In this document: one piece after another, positions 54,323 through 62,279 of the stretch
Position numbering within the stretch: the first letter of the stretch is position 1
How the letters are laid out: every line of letters starts with the position of its first letter
The notes under the pieces: model-generated
What the model saw: the letters and a program-made list of their open reading frames with translations, nothing else
The model's database searches: none
Told to the model about the DNA's origin: nothing
Translations under genes and position numbers: made by a program
NCBI RefSeq assembly: GCF_001435315.1
Contig: NZ_AZGK01000004.1
Location: forward strand, 124,001-188,000
Reading direction: 5' to 3'
Length of the DNA: 64,000 bases
From: Lentilactobacillus parabuchneri DSM 5707 = NBRC 107865
GTDB taxonomy: Bacteria > Bacillota > Bacilli > Lactobacillales > Lactobacillaceae

Positions 54323-55177
54323 TTATTTTGCAGTAGCTAAATACAATAACGTACCATTATTCTGACTATCATCTAGCTGATAGGATGGATATGGGCTAGT
54401 GAAGTACGACTTAGGACTGTCTTGTGCGCCGTCCCATGACGCAATGCCAATATTATAATTCTTCATGCTTTCACGCTTAGAAGGTGTATAGCCATTCGCA
54501 TTTAAAATGGTTTCAATATAATTAATTCTAGGACTGATCGGTTTGCCCGCCGTTTTACTTAAATACCACATGCTATCGTCACCAACTTGAGTTGATCCGG
54601 CCGGCTTCAAATCATTCAAATAAATATAATTAGTGTAATTTGGTGCTAACGTTGGTTTAGCGTTAATACTCGTTGCTGCAGCTTTCGATAAATCGAGTTT
54701 AAGCTGTGAGTTGGGAAAGAGTTTCAAAATGGCTCTAGTTAATCTTTGCGAACGATCAGTTTGAACATAATTAATAAAAGCTGATTCAGATGTAAAACTA
54801 GCAGGTGATTTCGCCAGTAAGCGGGTGAGATAGCCACTCCAAACCCACCCTTTAACCTTAAGATTGGAGCTAGCGCCAACGTAATAGTACACAGCTCGTT
54901 TACCCGTGTAGTTTTTAACTTTGGCGTAGAAAACATACCAGTTAGAGTTAGGGTAATTCTTAAGATTATGAAGCTTCTTAGTGTGGCGATAATCCCACAA
55001 ATAAGCTGAGTGTGAAACTGATTTAGCTTTATAAGGGACCGCCCCAACTTGTGCCTTATGATAATCGAATGAATAGTTGGCTGGAACAGCGCTGGCTTGA
55101 GCTTTATTATCCGAAATAACTGTGAAGCCAAAAATTGTTGCTAACAGAATTATGAGCGTTAACTTGAGTCGGTTCAT
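54323..55177 (-). CDS. Secreted protein with SH3-like domain (paralogue 1)
   Basis: The 284-residue protein has a signal peptide (residues 1-29, cleavage near AQASA-VP). An N-terminal domain (about 30-120) contains VPYKAKSVSHSAYLWDYRHTKKLHNLKNYP and YYYVGASSNLKVKGWVWSGYL, the same pattern as the two following secreted proteins. The C-terminal half (about 120-284) shares LTRAILKLFPNSQLKLDLSK and KRESMKNYNIGIASWDG with the protein at 55999. No anchor or catalytic motif is seen. The function is unknown; it is likely released or loosely wall-bound. Confidence 0.72.
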   Translation of the reverse strand: MNRLKLTLIILLATIFGFTVISDNKAQASAVPANYSFDYHKAQVGAVPYKAKSVSHSAYLWDYRHTKKLHNLKNYPNSNWYVFYAKVKNYTGKRAVYYYVGASSNLKVKGWVWSGYLTRLLAKSPASFTSESAFINYVQTDRSQRLTRAILKLFPNSQLKLDLSKAAATSINAKPTLAPNYTNYIYLNDLKPAGSTQVGDDSMWYLSKTAGKPISPRINYIETILNANGYTPSKRESMKNYNIGIASWDGAQDSPKSYFTSPYPSYQLDDSQNNGTLLYLATAK

Positions 55178-55209
55178 TTAAATATCCCCCTAAAATATGC
55201 CAATACTTT

Positions 55210-55626
55210 TTAGTTATCTTCTGGTAATTGATTTGGATTATTACCTTTAGATTCATTAGGATTATGCCCTTTTGTTAAATAAACACGCCAAACCCAACCG
55301 GTATTGTGTTGGCCATCAACCTGATAGTACACACGCTTCTTAGACCCCTTCTGAAGAACCCAAACATCAACAACGTTCCAAGTTTCATATGGATACTTAT
55401 TCAGGTTTGAATGTTTGCTAACGGTTGGCGTATTCCAAAGAATGGCACTCTTCTTTGGACTTTTTGCATGGTAAGGGACTCCTGGATAGGCTCTGCCCTT
55501 AATAACTTTCCACCCCGATTTAAGAACGATTCGTTGTTGTGCCGATACGGACATCGTCGTGACTGGGAGCATGAAGCCGATCACAAAGACACTCAAAACT
55601 ATAGTTAATAGAATTCTGTTTTTCAT
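55210..55626 (-). CDS. Small secreted protein with SH3-like domain (paralogue 2)
   Basis: The 138-residue protein has a signal peptide (1-29, SVSA-QQ). The rest is a single domain with GVPYHAKSPKKSAILWNT, NLNKYPYETWNV and VYYQVDGQHNTGWVWRVYL, matching the N-terminal domain of its neighbours but with no C-terminal half. It ends in a short Asn/Pro/Glu tail. It lies 32 bp upstream of paralogue 1 on the same strand and is probably co-transcribed with it. Confidence 0.7.
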   Translation of the reverse strand: MKNRILLTIVLSVFVIGFMLPVTTMSVSAQQRIVLKSGWKVIKGRAYPGVPYHAKSPKKSAILWNTPTVSKHSNLNKYPYETWNVVDVWVLQKGSKKRVYYQVDGQHNTGWVWRVYLTKGHNPNESKGNNPNQLPEDN

Positions 55627-55720
55627 TCAGGTCCCCTCTTTTTAAATCGATTATAGCTGAAAAGATACAGCATTGATAGTTTTAGAAACTGAGGTCAATG
55701 GCTATTACTGCGAACAAAAA

Positions 55721-55951
55721 ATGAGTATGCATGAAGTTAATGTGGCATTATCTATTGACAAAACTCGCTCACCTTGGAATATTTTGGGCTCTACTCCCGT
55801 TGAACGTGTCATAACCTTTTCAGATTTATCTGGGGCAGTAGAAATCGAAGCACCACAATTGACCGGTAATGACATTCTGTTTGGAATTGAGCAGGGAACG
55901 TCCGGTAATAAAACTCATTATATTTACCGTGTTCAAAAATCTATTTTTTAA
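55721..55951 (+). CDS. Small hypothetical protein, possible frameshifted 5' end
   Basis: From ATG 55721 the frame encodes 76 residues with codon use like its neighbours (ends YIYRVQKSIF); the frame is also open upstream from a TTG at 55673. There is no ribosome binding site at 55721. A GAGG-preceded ATG at 55697 opens a different frame (MAITANKK) that hits TGA in a run of six A residues; one extra A would fuse it directly to this frame. This may be a slipped homopolymer, coupled translation, or a chance ORF. No family is recognised. It is the only plus-strand frame in a minus-strand cluster. Confidence 0.35.
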   Translation: MSMHEVNVALSIDKTRSPWNILGSTPVERVITFSDLSGAVEIEAPQLTGNDILFGIEQGTSGNKTHYIYRVQKSIF

Positions 55952-55954
55952 CTG

Positions 55955-55981
55955 AAAAAGCCCTTCCTGAATAAGGAAGGG
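55955..55981 (-). terminator. Terminator of secreted paralogue 3
   Basis: CCCTTCC/GGAAGGG stem with a 7-nt loop followed on the minus strand by GCTTTTT. Confidence 0.85.
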
Positions 55982-55998
55982 GGTACATATTACTTACT

Positions 55999-56847
55999 TT
56001 ATTTAGGGATTCCCAATTGGATTGAGCATGCGCCGTAATCTTGCATATCTCGAAAGTTTGAAAGCGTGACTGGGTATCGGTACTTGTTAGCGATGTTTAG
56101 TTCACTTTGCCGATAAAAAGATTCCGCATAGCCGACGATGTTTAAACCAATATCATAGTTAGACATACTATTTCGCTTATCTTGATCGTATCCCATCTCT
56201 GAAAGCCGTTGATCAATTAGCTTAATGGCTTTAGAAGGGGCCATCCGTTCATAGTAACTGTAATTTCCCTCACTATCAAAAGAATTCAAATCTATCCTTT
56301 TAGTACTTGTAAATTCGTTCAATAAATCCGTTTTTTGGGGTAAGGAAACATATAAGCTTTTAGACAGATCTAGGTTAACTTGGGAATTGGGAAACAGCTT
56401 AGCAACCATTCGCGTTAGCTTTAACGCTTTGTTGCTACTTAAATCGTTAAGGTAGGCTTGTTGGCTATTAAATATGACTGGTAGCTTAATGATACTTTTT
56501 TTGAAATAACCATACCAAGCAATCCCTTTAACCTTTTTATTGTATGCCGAATATAGCTTGTAATACACTTGATTCTTACCTTTAACCGGCTTCACAAATG
56601 CCTTGGAAACCAACCAGACAGTATTAGGATAATTCTTTAAATTGTGAATCCGTTTGGTTTGGGTATTGTTCCAAATATAAGCTTTTTGACTTTTAGTGCT
56701 TGAATAATACGGAATTGGTCCTGTAAATATGGAGCCATCGAAAGAATAGTTGCTTGGGATAGTGTTCGCTGATACTGAGCCAATATTTAATAAGCCAAGG
56801 AAAACAGCCCCTAACAGTAACAAAAATGACAAACTTCTTTTTAGCAT
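55999..56847 (-). CDS. Secreted protein with SH3-like domain (paralogue 3)
   Basis: The start at 56847 (MLKRSLSFLLLL) follows GGAGG; 282 residues. A signal peptide ends near SVSA-NT. The N-terminal domain has IPYYSSTKSQKAYIWNNTQTKRIHNLKNYP and VYYKLYSAYNKKVKGIAWYGYF. The C-terminal half shares LTRMVAKLFPNSQVNLDLSK and KRNSMSNYDIGLNIVGY with paralogue 1, so the two are full-length paralogues. The function is unknown. It has its own terminator. Confidence 0.72.
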   Translation of the reverse strand: MLKRSLSFLLLLGAVFLGLLNIGSVSANTIPSNYSFDGSIFTGPIPYYSSTKSQKAYIWNNTQTKRIHNLKNYPNTVWLVSKAFVKPVKGKNQVYYKLYSAYNKKVKGIAWYGYFKKSIIKLPVIFNSQQAYLNDLSSNKALKLTRMVAKLFPNSQVNLDLSKSLYVSLPQKTDLLNEFTSTKRIDLNSFDSEGNYSYYERMAPSKAIKLIDQRLSEMGYDQDKRNSMSNYDIGLNIVGYAESFYRQSELNIANKYRYPVTLSNFRDMQDYGACSIQLGIPK

Positions 56848-56962
56848 CCTAAATACCTCCATTACTTATATTGTAACAAAAAGATTCTGTATTTGGGGTC
56901 AATAAAACATCCATAAAGAATAACGATAGGTCTTCAAAACCGACACAACCCAACAATGGTGA

Positions 56963-57164: not shown

Positions 57165-57214
57165 AAAAGCGATGCACTGGAAAAACCAAATGATTTTTCC
57201 AGTGCATCGCTTTT
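57165..57214. terminator. Bidirectional terminator of the B12-uptake operon
   Basis: AAAAGCGATGCACTGGAAAAA is exactly complementary to 57194-57214 across an 8-nt loop. It lies 44 bp downstream of the last gene. Confidence 0.92.
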
Positions 57215-57257: not shown

Positions 57258-57953
57258 CTATTCACTAAATCCGTTCACCGTAAAGTACCAATGAACTTGG
57301 TCGCCCGGTTTAATCAATTTATCACCCGCCGACTTGTCAACATACTTGCCGTTGACCGAATACATCCAGCCGCTGCCGGGCTTGATATCATTTTCCTTCA
57401 GTCCGTTAATGGCACTGACGTAAATGGCCGGACTGCTGGTATAGGTGACTTTTAAATTGGTTTGTTTGAGAAGCGTAAAGGCCGTTGTCTTCTTGGTAAT
57501 GCTTAGATTACCTGAATAAAACTGCTTCTTATACCCAGAAACTTTGAGGTAGGCCCTCCCAACCGTATTCGTTGATCGGTGAGTTGTGGCCGTCTGCTTT
57601 TTAGTGGTCGCTTTGGGATGCTGAGACGTGGATGACTGTTTAGCAGTCGCATGATGAGCGGCTGCTTTCTCAGGCGTATGAGCTATCGAAGACGCCCGAT
57701 CCGCTGTTTGATGATGAGCAGCCTGGTGCTGGGACTTGCTGTGATGTGGTTGACTGGAACTGGACTGCTTTTTTGGCTTGCTTGAAGAGGAAGTCGAACT
57801 TGAGAATACCTTAGGCTGGCTGCCGGAATCCATCTTGGCAACCGCTTCGGTCTTCGGATGCTGCTCCGCTCGGTTGGCGATCACCTCGCGAACCCCAAAG
57901 GCCAGGCCCAGCGCAATCACAATTCCAATGACGACTCCAATCGCTTTTTTCAT
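57258..57953 (-). CDS. Membrane-anchored DUF4430 (transcobalamin-like C-terminal) protein
   Basis: The 231-residue protein has an N-terminal hydrophobic segment (about 5-25) that can anchor or export it. A low-complexity Ser/Lys/His/Gln/Ala linker follows (about 45-130), then a DUF4430 domain (about 135-231) with FTLLKQ, VSAINGLKENDIKPGSGWMY, SVNGKYVDKS and a KPGDQVHWYF end. DUF4430 resembles the C-terminal beta domain of transcobalamin and intrinsic factor. It is the last gene of an operon with ECF transporter genes and a secreted alpha/alpha-barrel protein. In the SEED scheme such proteins are called an additional component of a predicted cobalamin ECF transporter. I infer a surface-tethered corrinoid-binding role. 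Confidence 0.85.
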   Translation of the reverse strand: MKKAIGVVIGIVIALGLAFGVREVIANRAEQHPKTEAVAKMDSGSQPKVFSSSTSSSSKPKKQSSSSQPHHSKSQHQAAHHQTADRASSIAHTPEKAAAHHATAKQSSTSQHPKATTKKQTATTHRSTNTVGRAYLKVSGYKKQFYSGNLSITKKTTAFTLLKQTNLKVTYTSSPAIYVSAINGLKENDIKPGSGWMYSVNGKYVDKSAGDKLIKPGDQVHWYFTVNGFSE

Positions 57954-57970
57954 AAACCCATTCCTTTAAC

Positions 57971-59017
57971 TTACTTGATTGTATAAACTGATTGGTGCTT
58001 GAGCGCCTGCCGGTAAGCCGCATTTGCCAAATTGACCTGACCCACACCTAATGTTTGAGTAGCGGCCCCCTTAATTGAGCCGGTTGATCGAACATAACCG
58101 AGCATCGCTTTCAAAGGTGAAGCGGTTTGACCTGATTTAAAGTAACCGTTGACGTATTTCAACGTCGATTGCTTAGTTGAAAATGCGATGATTGCTTCAG
58201 CAGTTGAGTTGGCGTTGGGGTAAGTCTTACCCATGTACGCGTAACCAAACGCACCACTTGGGTAAACCGCATTTTTAAGGTAAGTTTGCCCCTTGGCAAT
58301 CGCTGATTTAACGGCTGCAGTGGTTGACTTGCTTCGAGCCAATGCGGTAACAGCCATTGCCGTGGTGTCGCTGTCTGTATTGGCAAGCTGATTATTATAC
58401 GCCCATCCCTTGTTACTGAGCTGATTCTTAACGATCACCTGACCCAAGCCGGCCTTTGAAAATTGTGCGTTGCTTGGCCGCTGGTAATTACCAGTCGATA
58501 AAGCAATTAATGCCTGACTTTGGACAGTCACAGTCTGCTTCGTCATGGATTTACGATAAAGTGCCGCAACCAGGTTTAGGGATTTCTTAGCGCCGGTCTT
58601 GTGGAGCTTCTGTGGATTCAAGCCAACCGCCTTGATTGCGATAATAGCAGTTGCCAAATCAGCAGGGGTACTCTTCTTATTCAATATTAGGCTGTTAGCG
58701 ACCCGTGTTCGCTGTGTCTTGGTAAACTTGTACCCCAAGCCTTTAAGCCCCAGGAGAAAGTCTGAATAGCCATAAACGGCCCCAGTCGTCGGATAGGCTT
58801 TTTTACTAAATATGTAACTGGTCTTACCGGAAAAGCCGGTCCGGTTCTTGGATAACATCTTCTTGGCGTATTGATAACTGGCCTTGGTCTTTGATTGTTG
58901 GTAAGCAGTTGAAGCAGTCTTAACACTGGCGGCGTTAACGGTTGCCAGCGGTGAAGCGGCACCGGCTAACAATAAGCCGGCCATTGATAAAGTCACTAAT
59001 TTTTTAATGTGTTTCAT
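57971..59017 (-). CDS. Secreted alpha/alpha-barrel protein (prenyltransferase/transcobalamin-N-like)
   Basis: The 348-residue protein has a signal peptide (1-29, NAAS region). The mature part is a series of helix pairs with repeated small-residue motifs: DLATAIIAIKAVGL, TVQSQALIALSTGNY, DSDTTAMAVTALARS, NSTAEAIIAFST. This is the terpenoid-cyclase/prenyltransferase toroid pattern, and the DTTAMA element is like the VDTAAMA helix of intrinsic factor and transcobalamin. It has no cyclase catalytic DxDD motif. It lies between cbrT (20 bp) and the DUF4430 gene (17 bp). I infer a secreted partner that forms, with the DUF4430 protein, a split B12-binding unit. Confidence 0.8.
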   Translation of the reverse strand: MKHIKKLVTLSMAGLLLAGAASPLATVNAASVKTASTAYQQSKTKASYQYAKKMLSKNRTGFSGKTSYIFSKKAYPTTGAVYGYSDFLLGLKGLGYKFTKTQRTRVANSLILNKKSTPADLATAIIAIKAVGLNPQKLHKTGAKKSLNLVAALYRKSMTKQTVTVQSQALIALSTGNYQRPSNAQFSKAGLGQVIVKNQLSNKGWAYNNQLANTDSDTTAMAVTALARSKSTTAAVKSAIAKGQTYLKNAVYPSGAFGYAYMGKTYPNANSTAEAIIAFSTKQSTLKYVNGYFKSGQTASPLKAMLGYVRSTGSIKGAATQTLGVGQVNLANAAYRQALKHQSVYTIK

Positions 59018-59036
59018 AAGTTATCCATCCCTTGAT

Positions 59037-59741
59037 TTATTGTTTGGGTAAAAAACTGTATTTTCGGTCCAGCCGGTTAAACAGCTTTTCCCAAGTTCGA
59101 TATAGTAATCCAATCAGCACAACGTTTGATAGACAATGGTTCAAATCAAATCCAGCGCTCGCCACAAATGCCAAAATAAAACTTTTCGGCGTTAGTGGGG
59201 TCACGTAAGCCAAAGCATACCAAAGATCCATCATCCAGCCAAACACAAATCCCCAAACGCCGCCAAAAACAATCATCGCTATCAGGCTGTGACGAAACTT
59301 GGTCCGGCCGATAAAGCCGGCGGTCAGTCCCATCAACCCCCAGGCAACCATCTGCCACGGAGTCCACGGTCCCTGCCCCAAAAACATATTTGAGACCAGC
59401 GCTGTCGTCGAACCGGTCACAAAACCCAATTCCGGTCCAAGGACCACCCCGCCTAAAATAATCACAAAGCTGGCAGCTTGAACGCTGGGAATCGAGGCAA
59501 ACGGGACGCGGCCGGCAACCGCCAGCGCAATCAAAATGGCCACAAACATTAACGTCTGTGTCTTCAGCGGTTGGTGTTCAAACCGCCAGTAGGCAGGAAG
59601 AAGCGTACATAAGAGCACCATGAAGCTGAATAGCAAGAAATATTGATTTTTTAACAACAGTACTAAGACTAAAAAAACAGCGATCAGCGAAAAGACAAGA
59701 AGCATTCGGCTGAGATAAACTGCCCGTTGATTATGAAACAT
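59037..59741 (-). CDS. cbrT: ECF transporter S component, predicted cobalamin-specific
   Basis: The ATG at 59741 overlaps the end of cbrU by 11 bp and gives 234 residues; an ATG at 59777 would add 12 unlikely residues. The protein has about six TM helices and the S-component pattern VQAASFVIILGGVVLGPELG, MFLGQGPWTPWQMVAWGLMG and TAGFIGR. It binds the vitamin and sits with the EcfA/EcfT energising module. Cobalamin specificity is inferred from the genes downstream and from similarity to CbrT. Confidence 0.82.
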   Translation of the reverse strand: MFHNQRAVYLSRMLLVFSLIAVFLVLVLLLKNQYFLLFSFMVLLCTLLPAYWRFEHQPLKTQTLMFVAILIALAVAGRVPFASIPSVQAASFVIILGGVVLGPELGFVTGSTTALVSNMFLGQGPWTPWQMVAWGLMGLTAGFIGRTKFRHSLIAMIVFGGVWGFVFGWMMDLWYALAYVTPLTPKSFILAFVASAGFDLNHCLSNVVLIGLLYRTWEKLFNRLDRKYSFLPKQ

Positions 59742-61395
59742 CGCCACTCGTCCCTTCTGATTTAAGTGTAACATCATCCACCAATATTGCCTCAGGAACT
59801 TGGCTTCTCAACAACCGATTAATGGGTGTTGTAAAAAAGAAGTTATCAGAAAAAAATTCTCTGGTCGGCAAAATGGTGTTGAGGTGACCATCAAACATAA
59901 ACGCACAGTGTTTCGTATACGCCGCGCAAAAGGCCATGTCGTGGCTGGCCATCAAAATCGTCGTCCCGCTTTGGTTGACTTCTAGTAGCCACTTGCCCAA
60001 CAACTGTTTGGTATATGGGTCCAACCCCTTGGTGGGCTCATCTAAAATCAACAACTGTGGCTTGGCCAATAATGCGATAGCCAGACCCAAAAGCTGCTGC
60101 TGACCGGCACTAAGGTCAAACGGGCTGTGGCTTTTAACCGAATTCAGGTGCAAACGGGCAATCATGGCCTCAATCGCTTCGTTTGAAACGGTTTGTGGCA
60201 GTTGGTCCGCTTGATTTTGCAGTTCTTCCAGAACGGTCTCGGCCCCAAATTGAAGTGCGGGAGTCTGTGAAAGAAACGAAATTTTAGACAGCCGGTCGCC
60301 AGTTGGCAGCCGCCAAACAATCTGCCGGTCAAATTTGATCTTCCCATGCTGGGGAACCCTCAGCCCAGCCAGCATCGTCAGCAAAGTCGTTTTCCCCGAA
60401 CCGTTCTTGCCAACGATTGACAGCCAGTCACCCTTATGCAAATCAAGGGCCAAGCGATCGACAACGTTATTGGCGTGGTCAAAAGAAAACGAAATATCTT
60501 TGGCACTCAATATGACAGGTTTGGCCGCTGCCCTATGCATGTCTTGAATGGCCGACTGAAATTCCAGGCGCTGCTTCAAGATAGCAGTCTGGCCGTCAGC
60601 GACCGAAATCGGCAGTTTTTGATCGGTCAACTTTAAGTTCAAAAATAGTTTGGGAACGTCCGGCACGAAGTATTGGAGCTTGGCATCTGCCGCCATCTTG
60701 GGAATCCCGGTCGCCGGGTCGCCAACAAATGAAAGCTGGCGATCTTGGATCAGGACCATCGTATCAGCTAAAGCCAGTGCCGTTGACAAATTGTGTTCTG
60801 TCATCACAATTGTCATCCCCAACTCATGGTGGATCCGTTCCAAGACATCAAAAAAGTGCTGGGTTGAAAGCGGGTCCAGCTGTGCGGTCGGTTCGTCCAA
60901 TAGAATAATATCGGGACGTAAAATCAAAACCGATGCTAAATTAACTAATTGCAGCTGGCCGCCGGATAGGCTGCCAATCGTATTGTGCAGCAACTGATCG
61001 AGTCCTAAATAGTTAGCCAATTCGGCAATTCGCCGCTCAATTTCTTCACTGGGACAGGCGATGTTCTCTAGTGAAAATGCCAATTCGTCAATCACAGTGT
61101 CCATAATCGGCTGTACGGCGGGGTCCTGGGGAACATACCCCACCGTTTTCGCGCTGGTCAGTTTATCCAAACTATCGAGAGGCCGTTGATTAATCAGAAT
61201 TTGGCCGGATCGAGTCCCATTGGGCAGTAATTCCTTTTTAAAATGATTGATCAAAGTGGTCTTGCCACTGCCGGTTGCACCGGCGATGACGACAAATTGA
61301 CCGCGAAAAATCGTCAGATTAATGTCGGCTAAGGCAGGCTGAGGGCTGTCAGGATATGTAAATGTCAGATGGTGTGTTTGAATTAATTCCTGCAT
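59731..61395 (-). CDS. cbrU: ECF transporter duplicated ATPase
   Basis: The 554-residue protein carries two ABC domains. Domain 1 has Walker A GATGSGKTTL (about residue 36), signature LSGGQLQL and Walker B ILLDEPTAQLDP. Domain 2 has GKNGSGKTTLL (near 330), LSAGQQQLL and LILDEPTKGLDP; H-loops are VMTEHNL and LMASHDM. It powers the transporter from the cytosol. The fused ATPase pair is typical of dedicated (group I) ECF systems, such as CbrU. The start overlaps cbrV by 13 bp. Confidence 0.9.
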   Translation of the reverse strand: MQELIQTHHLTFTYPDSPQPALADINLTIFRGQFVVIAGATGSGKTTLINHFKKELLPNGTRSGQILINQRPLDSLDKLTSAKTVGYVPQDPAVQPIMDTVIDELAFSLENIACPSEEIERRIAELANYLGLDQLLHNTIGSLSGGQLQLVNLASVLILRPDIILLDEPTAQLDPLSTQHFFDVLERIHHELGMTIVMTEHNLSTALALADTMVLIQDRQLSFVGDPATGIPKMAADAKLQYFVPDVPKLFLNLKLTDQKLPISVADGQTAILKQRLEFQSAIQDMHRAAAKPVILSAKDISFSFDHANNVVDRLALDLHKGDWLSIVGKNGSGKTTLLTMLAGLRVPQHGKIKFDRQIVWRLPTGDRLSKISFLSQTPALQFGAETVLEELQNQADQLPQTVSNEAIEAMIARLHLNSVKSHSPFDLSAGQQQLLGLAIALLAKPQLLILDEPTKGLDPYTKQLLGKWLLEVNQSGTTILMASHDMAFCAAYTKHCAFMFDGHLNTILPTREFFSDNFFFTTPINRLLRSQVPEAILVDDVTLKSEGTSGDVS

Positions 61396-62279
61396 GCGCG
61401 ATAAGCTCCTTCAAAAACCAGTGGGCCGATTAATAACATACCCAGGCTGACCGCTGCTAAAAAGTCGTCAGTTGCCCAAAAGCCGGTAAAATCAGCGACT
61501 GATTTCGACCAACCGAACTGGCTGCTTCGAACCACGATCATCCCAATAAAAACGACTAACGAACAGCCCAAAAACATCCAATCAGTGGCATGCCAACGAT
61601 ACGTCTGATAATGGCTGCGTTTGGTCGCCCCAAAGCCCCTGGCATCCATCAACCGAGCCGATTCCATCCCTGACGCCAGCGAATCCTCTAAGAGAATCTG
61701 CAGGAGTTTACCCGCATTTCGAATCCGAACGCCGATAGAACCGGCTTCAACGTTCAAGTTTCGGGTCTTCTGCAGCATGGCCAGTTCGTGAAATTGATGA
61801 TTGAAGGTTTTGACCAGATGAACTGACATCACGGCCAGCAATCCAAGTTTCGGCGTCATTGGTGAAAAGACATAAACCAAGCGATTGGCGGGCAGAATAA
61901 CATTCAATATCCCAAACACCATCAGCATTTCCACCAGCATTAGGCCCATGACGGCACCATAGATTAGGGCAGGCAACGAAGCCCGAAACGTCAACCCGAA
62001 GACCGAAAACTGTCCAAGTGTTGGTGCAAACTTTTGGTTCAACAAACAGTTAAAGAAAACAATCGTTAAAAAGAGCAACCCATTCCACTTGAGCTGCTTG
62101 AACACAGGCCGCCAGCCCATATAAAATCCGCTAACCGCCAACAAGCCGGCAAATCCAACAACTGCGACGGAAACGTGGTTAAACAAAAGCAGCCCAACCA
62201 CGACTTCAACGAAGTAAACTGCCGAAACGACTGGGTGAAGCTGATAAAAAAATGTCATTCGTATCGGCAATTGCTGCAT
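61383..62279 (-). CDS. cbrV: ECF transporter T component
   Basis: The 298-residue membrane protein starts after AAAGGAG and has about six TM helices (four to five before residue 175, one or two after 235). The cytosolic coupling region shows the EcfT signature: SLASGMESARLMDARGFGATKRSHY, in which the Ala-Arg-Gly type motif (DARGFG) contacts the ATPase. It is the first gene of a five-gene operon. Confidence 0.88.
   Translation of the reverse strand: MQQLPIRMTFFYQLHPVVSAVYFVEVVVGLLLFNHVSVAVVGFAGLLAVSGFYMGWRPVFKQLKWNGLLFLTIVFFNCLLNQKFAPTLGQFSVFGLTFRASLPALIYGAVMGLMLVEMLMVFGILNVILPANRLVYVFSPMTPKLGLLAVMSVHLVKTFNHQFHELAMLQKTRNLNVEAGSIGVRIRNAGKLLQILLEDSLASGMESARLMDARGFGATKRSHYQTYRWHATDWMFLGCSLVVFIGMIVVRSSQFGWSKSVADFTGFWATDDFLAAVSLGMLLIGPLVFEGAYRACRN

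Follow-up and report, generated by a model that had tools for sequence, protein, structure and literature searches.

A 64,000-nucleotide stretch of the genome of Lentilactobacillus parabuchneri DSM 5707 = NBRC 107865 (contig NZ_AZGK01000004.1, positions 124,001 to 188,000; hereafter the window) was found to carry five minus-strand genes (57258-62279) that probably constitute an operon for the import of a corrinoid, a cofactor of the vitamin B12 type, with an extracellular carrier made in two pieces. The genes encode EcfT and a double EcfA ATPase of an energy-coupling factor (ECF) importer, an S component, a secreted protein of the alpha/alpha-toroid class and a DUF4430 (SLBB) protein, the last two being the putative halves of the carrier. 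The gene evidence strongly supports the ligand class and supports the toroid-DUF4430 pairing well; from it we infer the ligand itself, its sandwiching between the two proteins, their ligand-dependent assembly and the hand-off to the S component.

All five open reading frames (ORFs) named in the original prediction, which had been made from the same DNA, were present at the place and on the strand proposed (Table 1), and the operon contains EcfT, two EcfA cassettes and an S component. Spacings of 20 bp or less had also been claimed, which proved correct for EcfT/EcfA (-13 bp), S/toroid (+19 bp) and toroid/DUF4430 (+17 bp) and incorrect for EcfA/S, where the longest reading of the S gene gives -47 bp. 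This overlap is 11 bp if the S component begins at residue 13, as in the relative at locus L007, and this is probably the true start.

Table 1. Features of the corrinoid-type import operon (window coordinates) and of the second toroid locus in the same genome.
Feature	Position	Strand	Remarks
EcfT (298 aa)	61383..62279	-	transmembrane energy-coupling protein
EcfA double ATPase (554 aa)	59731..61395	-	two ABC cassettes, one chain
CbrT-related S component (246 aa, longest reading)	59037..59777	-	PF07155
Secreted alpha/alpha-toroid protein (348 aa)	57971..59017	-	predicted structure, toroid profiles
DUF4430/SLBB protein (231 aa)	57258..57953	-	PF14478
DUF4430 domain proper, residues 157-225	57279..57485	-	Pfam coordinates
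Terminator-like hairpin directly 3' of the DUF4430 gene	57166..57213	-	20 counted pairs; RNAfold 22 pairs, -34.8 kcal/mol
Second locus	L003:9000-12470	+	contig C7, window genome; toroid-like/DUF5776/DUF4430 fusion, then solo toroid

Toroid loci were sought in one genome from each of 84,980 species, by a scan that required conserved peptides in addition to similarity to the window toroid and consequently missed distant relatives. A total of 51 loci were retrieved that, by record title, came from 40 genomes, all of them Lactobacillaceae and mostly Lentilactobacillus, Levilactobacillus and Secundilactobacillus; the 51 loci are not all independent, given that they derive from 40 genomes and include some near-identical copies (L060-L064). 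The order EcfT-EcfA-S-toroid-DUF4430 was observed in 34/51 loci and the toroid gene adjoined a DUF4430 gene on the same strand in 44/51, hence the five-gene arrangement is not due to chance, and the proposed search of other genomes for co-occurrence of the two genes with the transporter had a positive outcome. Another two loci harboured the transporter and the toroid without an adjacent DUF4430 gene, and in ten loci a fusion gene preceded the toroid. The window toroid grouped in the toroid tree with those of Lentilactobacillus parakefiri, otakiensis, sunkii and kefiri. Toroids were found in eight of 72,556 plasmid records, seven of these from Lactobacillaceae. No near-identical plasmid copy of the window operon was found, and the phages returned one weak partial toroid match.

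A variant order, toroid-DUF4430-EcfT-EcfA-S, was present in Latilactobacillus curvatus (L038) and at loci L097 and L098, with the toroid lying within a longer protein. In L038 and L097 (scanned as L031) the match of these longer proteins to an LPXTG-anchor model exceeded the cut-off; in L098 (scanned as L028) it fell short. Tandem pairs of toroids, combined with an LPXTG-anchor match under cut-off, occur in the proteins encoded beside DUF4430 genes at L098:2290-4755 (+) and L029:802-3597 (-), the former being adjoined by EcfT-EcfA-S.

There was also a second toroid locus in the window genome, where a 798-residue fusion ORF has toroid-like sequence in its N-terminal half, then a DUF5776 region and, at the C-terminus, DUF4430 (E=7.4e-15). 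After it comes a solo toroid with 54% identity to that of the window. The two halves, which are separate genes in the window, share a single chain at this second locus. The fusion family forms a cluster of 12 proteins, two of which were tested for DUF4430 by Pfam. When the profile of 15 solo toroids was compared with that of nine fusions, with no row in common, a probability of 91.5 was obtained (E=8.6e-7, 220 columns); an earlier comparison (E=2.1e-31) was not relied upon because two rows were common to both sides, a further comparison that had rows in common was likewise set aside, and mixed alignments of fusions and solo proteins, in which toroid ends were misplaced into the DUF4430 region, were not used for the fold. 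Judged by sequence, toroid-type and DUF4430 domains therefore occur both in one chain and in two. To explain the toroid tree, several switches between linkage to the transporter and linkage to a fusion are required, and the tree did not settle whether the split or the fused form came first.

The ligand class is indicated by the genes that accompany the toroid. In a family sample of 301 genomes, 28 encoded a toroid (a count that includes wall-anchored relatives and one contig-edge fragment, G261), 28 encoded PduC, 80 a cobalamin adenosyltransferase (ATR) over cut-off, 63 a class II NrdJ over cut-off and 83 a DUF4430 protein. ATR was present in 27/28 toroid genomes vs 53/273 others, NrdJ in 20/28 vs 43/273 and PduC in 16/28 vs 12/273. 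Genomes with DUF4430 showed the same tendency, class II NrdJ being found in 63/83 of them and 0/218 others, and ATR in 75/83 and 5/218, respectively. Fisher tests of these co-occurrences gave p <1e-8 with descent ignored, the genomes not being independent. In a genus sample the toroid was found in 11 of 15 genomes, all 11 of which encoded ATR, NrdJ and DUF4430; the other four encoded none of these.

At the level of the 51 loci, the fetched stretch included pduC in 12, PduV/EutP in 15, other bacterial microcompartment (BMC) genes in 14 and cobamide-salvage clusters in eight, two of which consist solely of a CobC-like phosphatase whose representative scored below the NCBIfam cut-off. Any pdu, BMC, eutP or cob gene was found in 27/51 loci, one representative per family having been identified for these counts. 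In the window genome (2.57 Mb) the genes for the B12-dependent NrdJ and for ATR are 553 bp apart, the interval containing stops in all three forward frames and no ORF of at least 150 aa, and the genome yielded no CbiC, no PduC and no PF02310 match. CbiC was detected in 17/80 genomes scanned, including 7/28 toroid genomes, and the toroid system is therefore not confined to auxotrophs. A thiamine pyrophosphate (TPP) riboswitch was observed near the nrdJ region (L091:4808-4906 (-)).

AraC-type regulators with a C-terminal DUF4430 domain (L079:11851-12945 (-), L086:11890-13017 (-) and 16 clustered relatives) were encoded in 17/51 loci, in 11 of them between the DUF4430 gene and pduC. DUF4430 was assigned by Pfam in two members of this set and by clustering in the rest, and the L081 copy appears truncated. 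These proteins may sense corrinoids inside the cell and thereby regulate pdu genes.

The importer was described in the original prediction as CbrTUV-like, that is, of the corrinoid type. Its EcfT had no Pfam match over cut-off, though orthologues carry an EcfT annotation in loci L035-L038, that of plasmid pMF1298-5 is 46% identical, and the sequence contains an ARG motif and several hydrophobic stretches. EcfA matched PF00005 in two stretches (E=1.2e-57), and exhibits two Walker A and two signature motifs (LSGGQ/LSAGQ); amongst the NCBIfam models, TIGR01166 (cbiO) was slightly over its cut-off and TIGR04521 and TIGR04520 were under theirs. The S component matched PF07155 (E=9.7e-12) and, by phmmer, 6fnp_A (E=3.6e-7), which we take to be the ECF-CbrT entry (listed under the title 'Membrane protein'). 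In addition, a single CbrT query from an nrdJ cluster found the window S gene as its only match in the window genome at E<=0.001. The likeness to CbrT, together with the B12 gene context, upholds the CbrTUV-like assignment.

BtuCDF was considered as a rival B12 route in the window genome and rejected: the genome's single FecCD permease is encoded together with a Peripla_BP_2 protein and a pair of NEAT-domain proteins, making heme the likelier substrate. This NEAT/Peripla_BP_2/FecCD cluster (L103:65-4693 (+), contig C50) is in itself an instance of heme-type uptake genes in a lactic acid bacterium.

The DUF4430 protein matched PF14478 with E=1.6e-17. Its N-terminus comprises a hydrophobic stretch (residues 1-27) without a lipobox, which by its sequence would be an uncleaved membrane anchor, and between this and the DUF4430 domain lies a linker of ~110 residues, many of them S, A, K or T. 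The domain had been predicted to be related to the beta domain of transcobalamin, and a profile of 14 diverse DUF4430 cores (that of the window included) indeed matched residues 360-433 of transcobalamin-1 (4kki; E=0.0013), a score surpassed only by that of 3u7z, a 'putative metal binding protein RUMGNA_00854' (E=5.6e-4). When the PDB was searched with the DUF4430 alignment in full, the matches fell on low-complexity linkers; the core alone was effective, and a search with the fusion alignment retrieved nothing relevant. The link between SLBB/DUF4430 and transcobalamin was drawn earlier by Burroughs et al. 2007 (PMC1796856), and a DUF4430 domain has been placed at the C-terminus of TCN proteins (PMC4350170).

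The toroid protein has a signal-peptide-like N-terminus (approximately residues 1-29), with no LPXTG motif and no lipobox. An AlphaFold2 model built with 44 sequences had a predicted local distance difference test score (pLDDT) of 88.8 and a predicted template modelling score (pTM) of 0.87, and the 29 residues with pLDDT <50 were residues 1-29. The model contains 13 helices, one of only four residues, which is what a six-hairpin toroid would give. The solo-toroid profile matched 7xq4, a SQHop_cyclase_C-domain protein, with E=4.3e-4, and a wider profile of 19 mixed toroids matched 7xq4 (E=8.6e-8) as well as 1gsz, a squalene-hopene cyclase (E=2.8e-7), such proteins being the nearest solved structures by profile. 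The predicted barrel is thus of the alpha/alpha-toroid class, and this class is secure for the secreted protein, for which no Pfam match over cut-off and no NCBIfam match at E<=1 were found.

A specific kinship of the toroid with the alpha domain of transcobalamin is plausible but indirect, being traced through a relative. Over 268 residues the window toroid shares 32% identity with the second of the two toroids in the L098:2290-4755 protein, and that domain, scanned alone, scored 26.4 bits with Cobalamin_bind (PF01122; cut-off 25 bits, E=4.3e-6). A search for Cobalamin_bind in 27 of the 28 toroid genomes gave matches at E<=1 in four, of which one was over cut-off with its neighbours in frame; a B. 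subtilis control likewise gave matches below cut-off. Plasmid-borne toroids of Lactobacillaceae (L035:8926-9978 (+), L037:7686-8732 (+) and L101:7932-8978 (+)) are annotated 'fucose-binding lectin II', a name that is probably wrong; the L035 toroid matched no Pfam family at E<=1.

Taken as a whole, the system may be pictured as follows. B12 would be captured extracellularly by a carrier consisting of two separate proteins, the long linker allowing the DUF4430 domain to extend outward, and binding of the corrinoid would join the secreted toroid and the tethered DUF4430 domain on the surface of the cell. Either this loaded complex or the DUF4430 half of it may then pass the corrinoid to the CbrT-related S component, uptake being powered by the operon's own EcfT/EcfA, and inside the cell the adenosyltransferase and NrdJ would use it. 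Corrinoid-dependent assembly is proposed because transcobalamin holds B12 sandwiched between its toroid and beta-grasp domains (PMC1796856), and because separately expressed human transcobalamin alpha (TC-alpha, as a complex with CD320) and beta (TC-beta) co-elute only with cyanocobalamin (PMC5599065); intrinsic factor is said in the same source to behave like the split transcobalamin halves. We further entertain, as a speculative extension, that the free, unanchored toroid is a diffusible B12 catcher (a 'corrinophore') which, once loaded and not before, is taken back by the tethered DUF4430 protein, the corrinoid acting as glue. Were this so, the pair would be a naturally split transcobalamin, in pieces that form one chain in animals.

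Several observations weigh against a two-piece corrinoid carrier, those that favour a particular alternative being given with it below. The DUF4430 core profile matched the transcobalamin-2 beta domain (5no0) at no better than E=0.77, matches to other families ranking between it and transcobalamin-1. Toroid genes lacked transporter genes in the fetched stretch at L076 and at the second locus of the window genome (L003), which has none nearby. NrdJ and PduC were both missing from 3/28 toroid genomes (G025, G027 and G261), with ATR also missing from G025. No cobalamin riboswitch was detected in the window, in six of the 51 loci or in the genome's own nrdJ region. The window genome also holds two other, stronger PF07155 S components.

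The best of the alternatives, which we regard as rather unlikely, is that the operon does import a corrinoid and that the DUF4430 protein alone binds it and hands it to the S component, in the manner of CbrS, with the toroid serving some other purpose, for example to free corrinoid bound to other carriers or to attach the complex to the wall. No toroid match was found in 56/83 DUF4430 genomes, hence DUF4430 can do some job alone, and human TC-beta has been crystallised alone with cobalamin bound (PMC5599065). Amongst five toroid-less DUF4430 genomes inspected, three (L092, L093 and L095) harboured an nrdJ-DUF4430-S-ATR run with a DUF4430 protein of 128-131 aa; L094 had the same nrdJ-DUF4430-S run with ATR on the other strand, and in L096 the DUF4430 gene diverged from a run of EcfT, EcfA, S and ATR with one other gene inside. 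By analogy of position, the short DUF4430 gene of these clusters is probably the 'cbrS' of the literature, since it occupies the same place in the nrdJ-cbrS-cbrT-pduO cluster named in PMC5997447. Against a DUF4430 protein acting alone in the window stand the adjacency of toroid and DUF4430 in 44 of the 51 loci, the single chain holding both domains in the cluster of 12 proteins, and the employment of both halves by the animal carriers. Two of the three short proteins (L092:2064-2459 (-), L093:3610-3996 (+) and L095:3656-4045 (+)) carry a lipobox-like LTGC/LAGC.

It is very unlikely that the operon instead imports a non-corrinoid substrate such as heme, folate, a cobalt chelate or another cofactor. 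The substrate class was read from sequence, the S component is distant from CbrT at the E-value given above, and its best NCBIfam match was a folate-family S component, below that model's cut-off; nevertheless, the co-occurrence with ATR, NrdJ and PduC and the proximity of pdu and cobamide-salvage genes argue for a corrinoid.

The relatives of the toroid raise the question of whether it is a binding protein at all. Prenyltransferase and squalene cyclase models matched the toroids as well as or better than Cobalamin_bind; the isolated L098 domain scored higher with Prenyltrans (1e-7 vs 4.3e-6), and the whole 821-residue protein had no Cobalamin_bind match at E<=1. Matches to Cobalamin_bind were few and varied with the way in which the sequence was divided: it was matched at E<=0.1 by 2/19 toroid domains and by 1/44 solo toroids (E=0.0023), and not by the window toroid itself in the Pfam scans. 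A secreted enzyme of the cyclase/prenyltransferase type, as these scores and the SQHop_cyclase_C-domain and squalene-hopene cyclase structures might suggest, is nonetheless highly improbable, given the signal peptide, the importer operon, the chain shared with DUF4430 and a conserved D215-x-D217-T-T that lacks the full DxDD motif of the cyclases.

The operon ends with a long stem followed by T-rich sequence (Table 1). The terminator scan listed five terminator-like sites in the window vs 7.2 expected in shuffles, so that the evidence for this terminator is the length of its stem and not the site count. TATAAT and AAGGAG sequences lie upstream of EcfT, where the promoter scan listed no site. 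Just downstream of the operon, at 54323-56862 (-), are three exported-looking proteins (284, 138 and 287 aa) that are mutually alike by eye and have no Pfam match.

To our knowledge, little has been written on how Gram-positive bacteria capture B12 ahead of its passage through the membrane. The reading favoured here proposes a function for proteins publicly annotated as 'hypothetical' or 'fucose-binding lectin II', and is relevant to how organisms compete for B12 in the gut and in fermented foods. A two-piece carrier, if true, would also suggest how the animal B12 carriers could have been assembled from bacterial parts. The split pair poses a clean question for assay, namely whether B12 holds two purified bacterial proteins together, and the TC-alpha/TC-beta experiments with the human protein make it directly testable.

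The novelty claimed for the split carrier stands in part. Burroughs et al. 2007 (PMC1796856) had already predicted that toroid and SLBB domains cooperate, that toroid+SLBB surface proteins encoded with CbiO/CbiQ-like genes scavenge B12 and that different SLBB proteins form complexes, and had noted AraC-SLBB regulators in Lactobacillus; what is new is the recurrent split of toroid and DUF4430 into two proteins. The window operon shares with those cases the domains, the CbiO/CbiQ-type setting, the proposed B12 scavenging and the AraC-SLBB regulators of its relatives, but the cases described there have toroid and SLBB fused, with second SLBB proteins in the same operon, whereas the window has a solo toroid and a solo SLBB protein. 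No description of a solo toroid with a solo DUF4430 partner was found in searches of the open-licence PMC literature. The operon of plasmid pMF1298-5 has been listed as CbrV, CbrU and CbrT with NrdJ, CobA, CblT, CblS, CobS and CobC (PMC6722938), in an account whose relevant part leaves the toroid uncommented.

Like animal transcobalamin, intrinsic factor and haptocorrin, the window operon combines an alpha/alpha toroid with a beta-grasp (DUF4430/SLBB) domain, the DUF4430 core profile matching transcobalamin-1 and one toroid relative exceeding the Cobalamin_bind cut-off as an isolated domain only. In contrast to the animal carriers, the putative halves in the window are separate proteins, one secreted and one apparently membrane-anchored, encoded beside an ECF importer. 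The CbrT-related S component and the B12 gene context are shared with ECF-CbrT of L. delbrueckii, which imports cobalamin and cobinamide, and with its nrdJ-cbrS-cbrT-pduO cluster (PMC5997447). Whilst the S components of L. delbrueckii share one module, the window operon carries its own EcfT/EcfA, and adds a toroid gene and a long-linker DUF4430 protein. Finally, the pair as proposed resembles BtuG of Bacteroides (PMC6143338) in being a surface device that captures B12 for an importer, although BtuG is a single lipoprotein working with BtuB.

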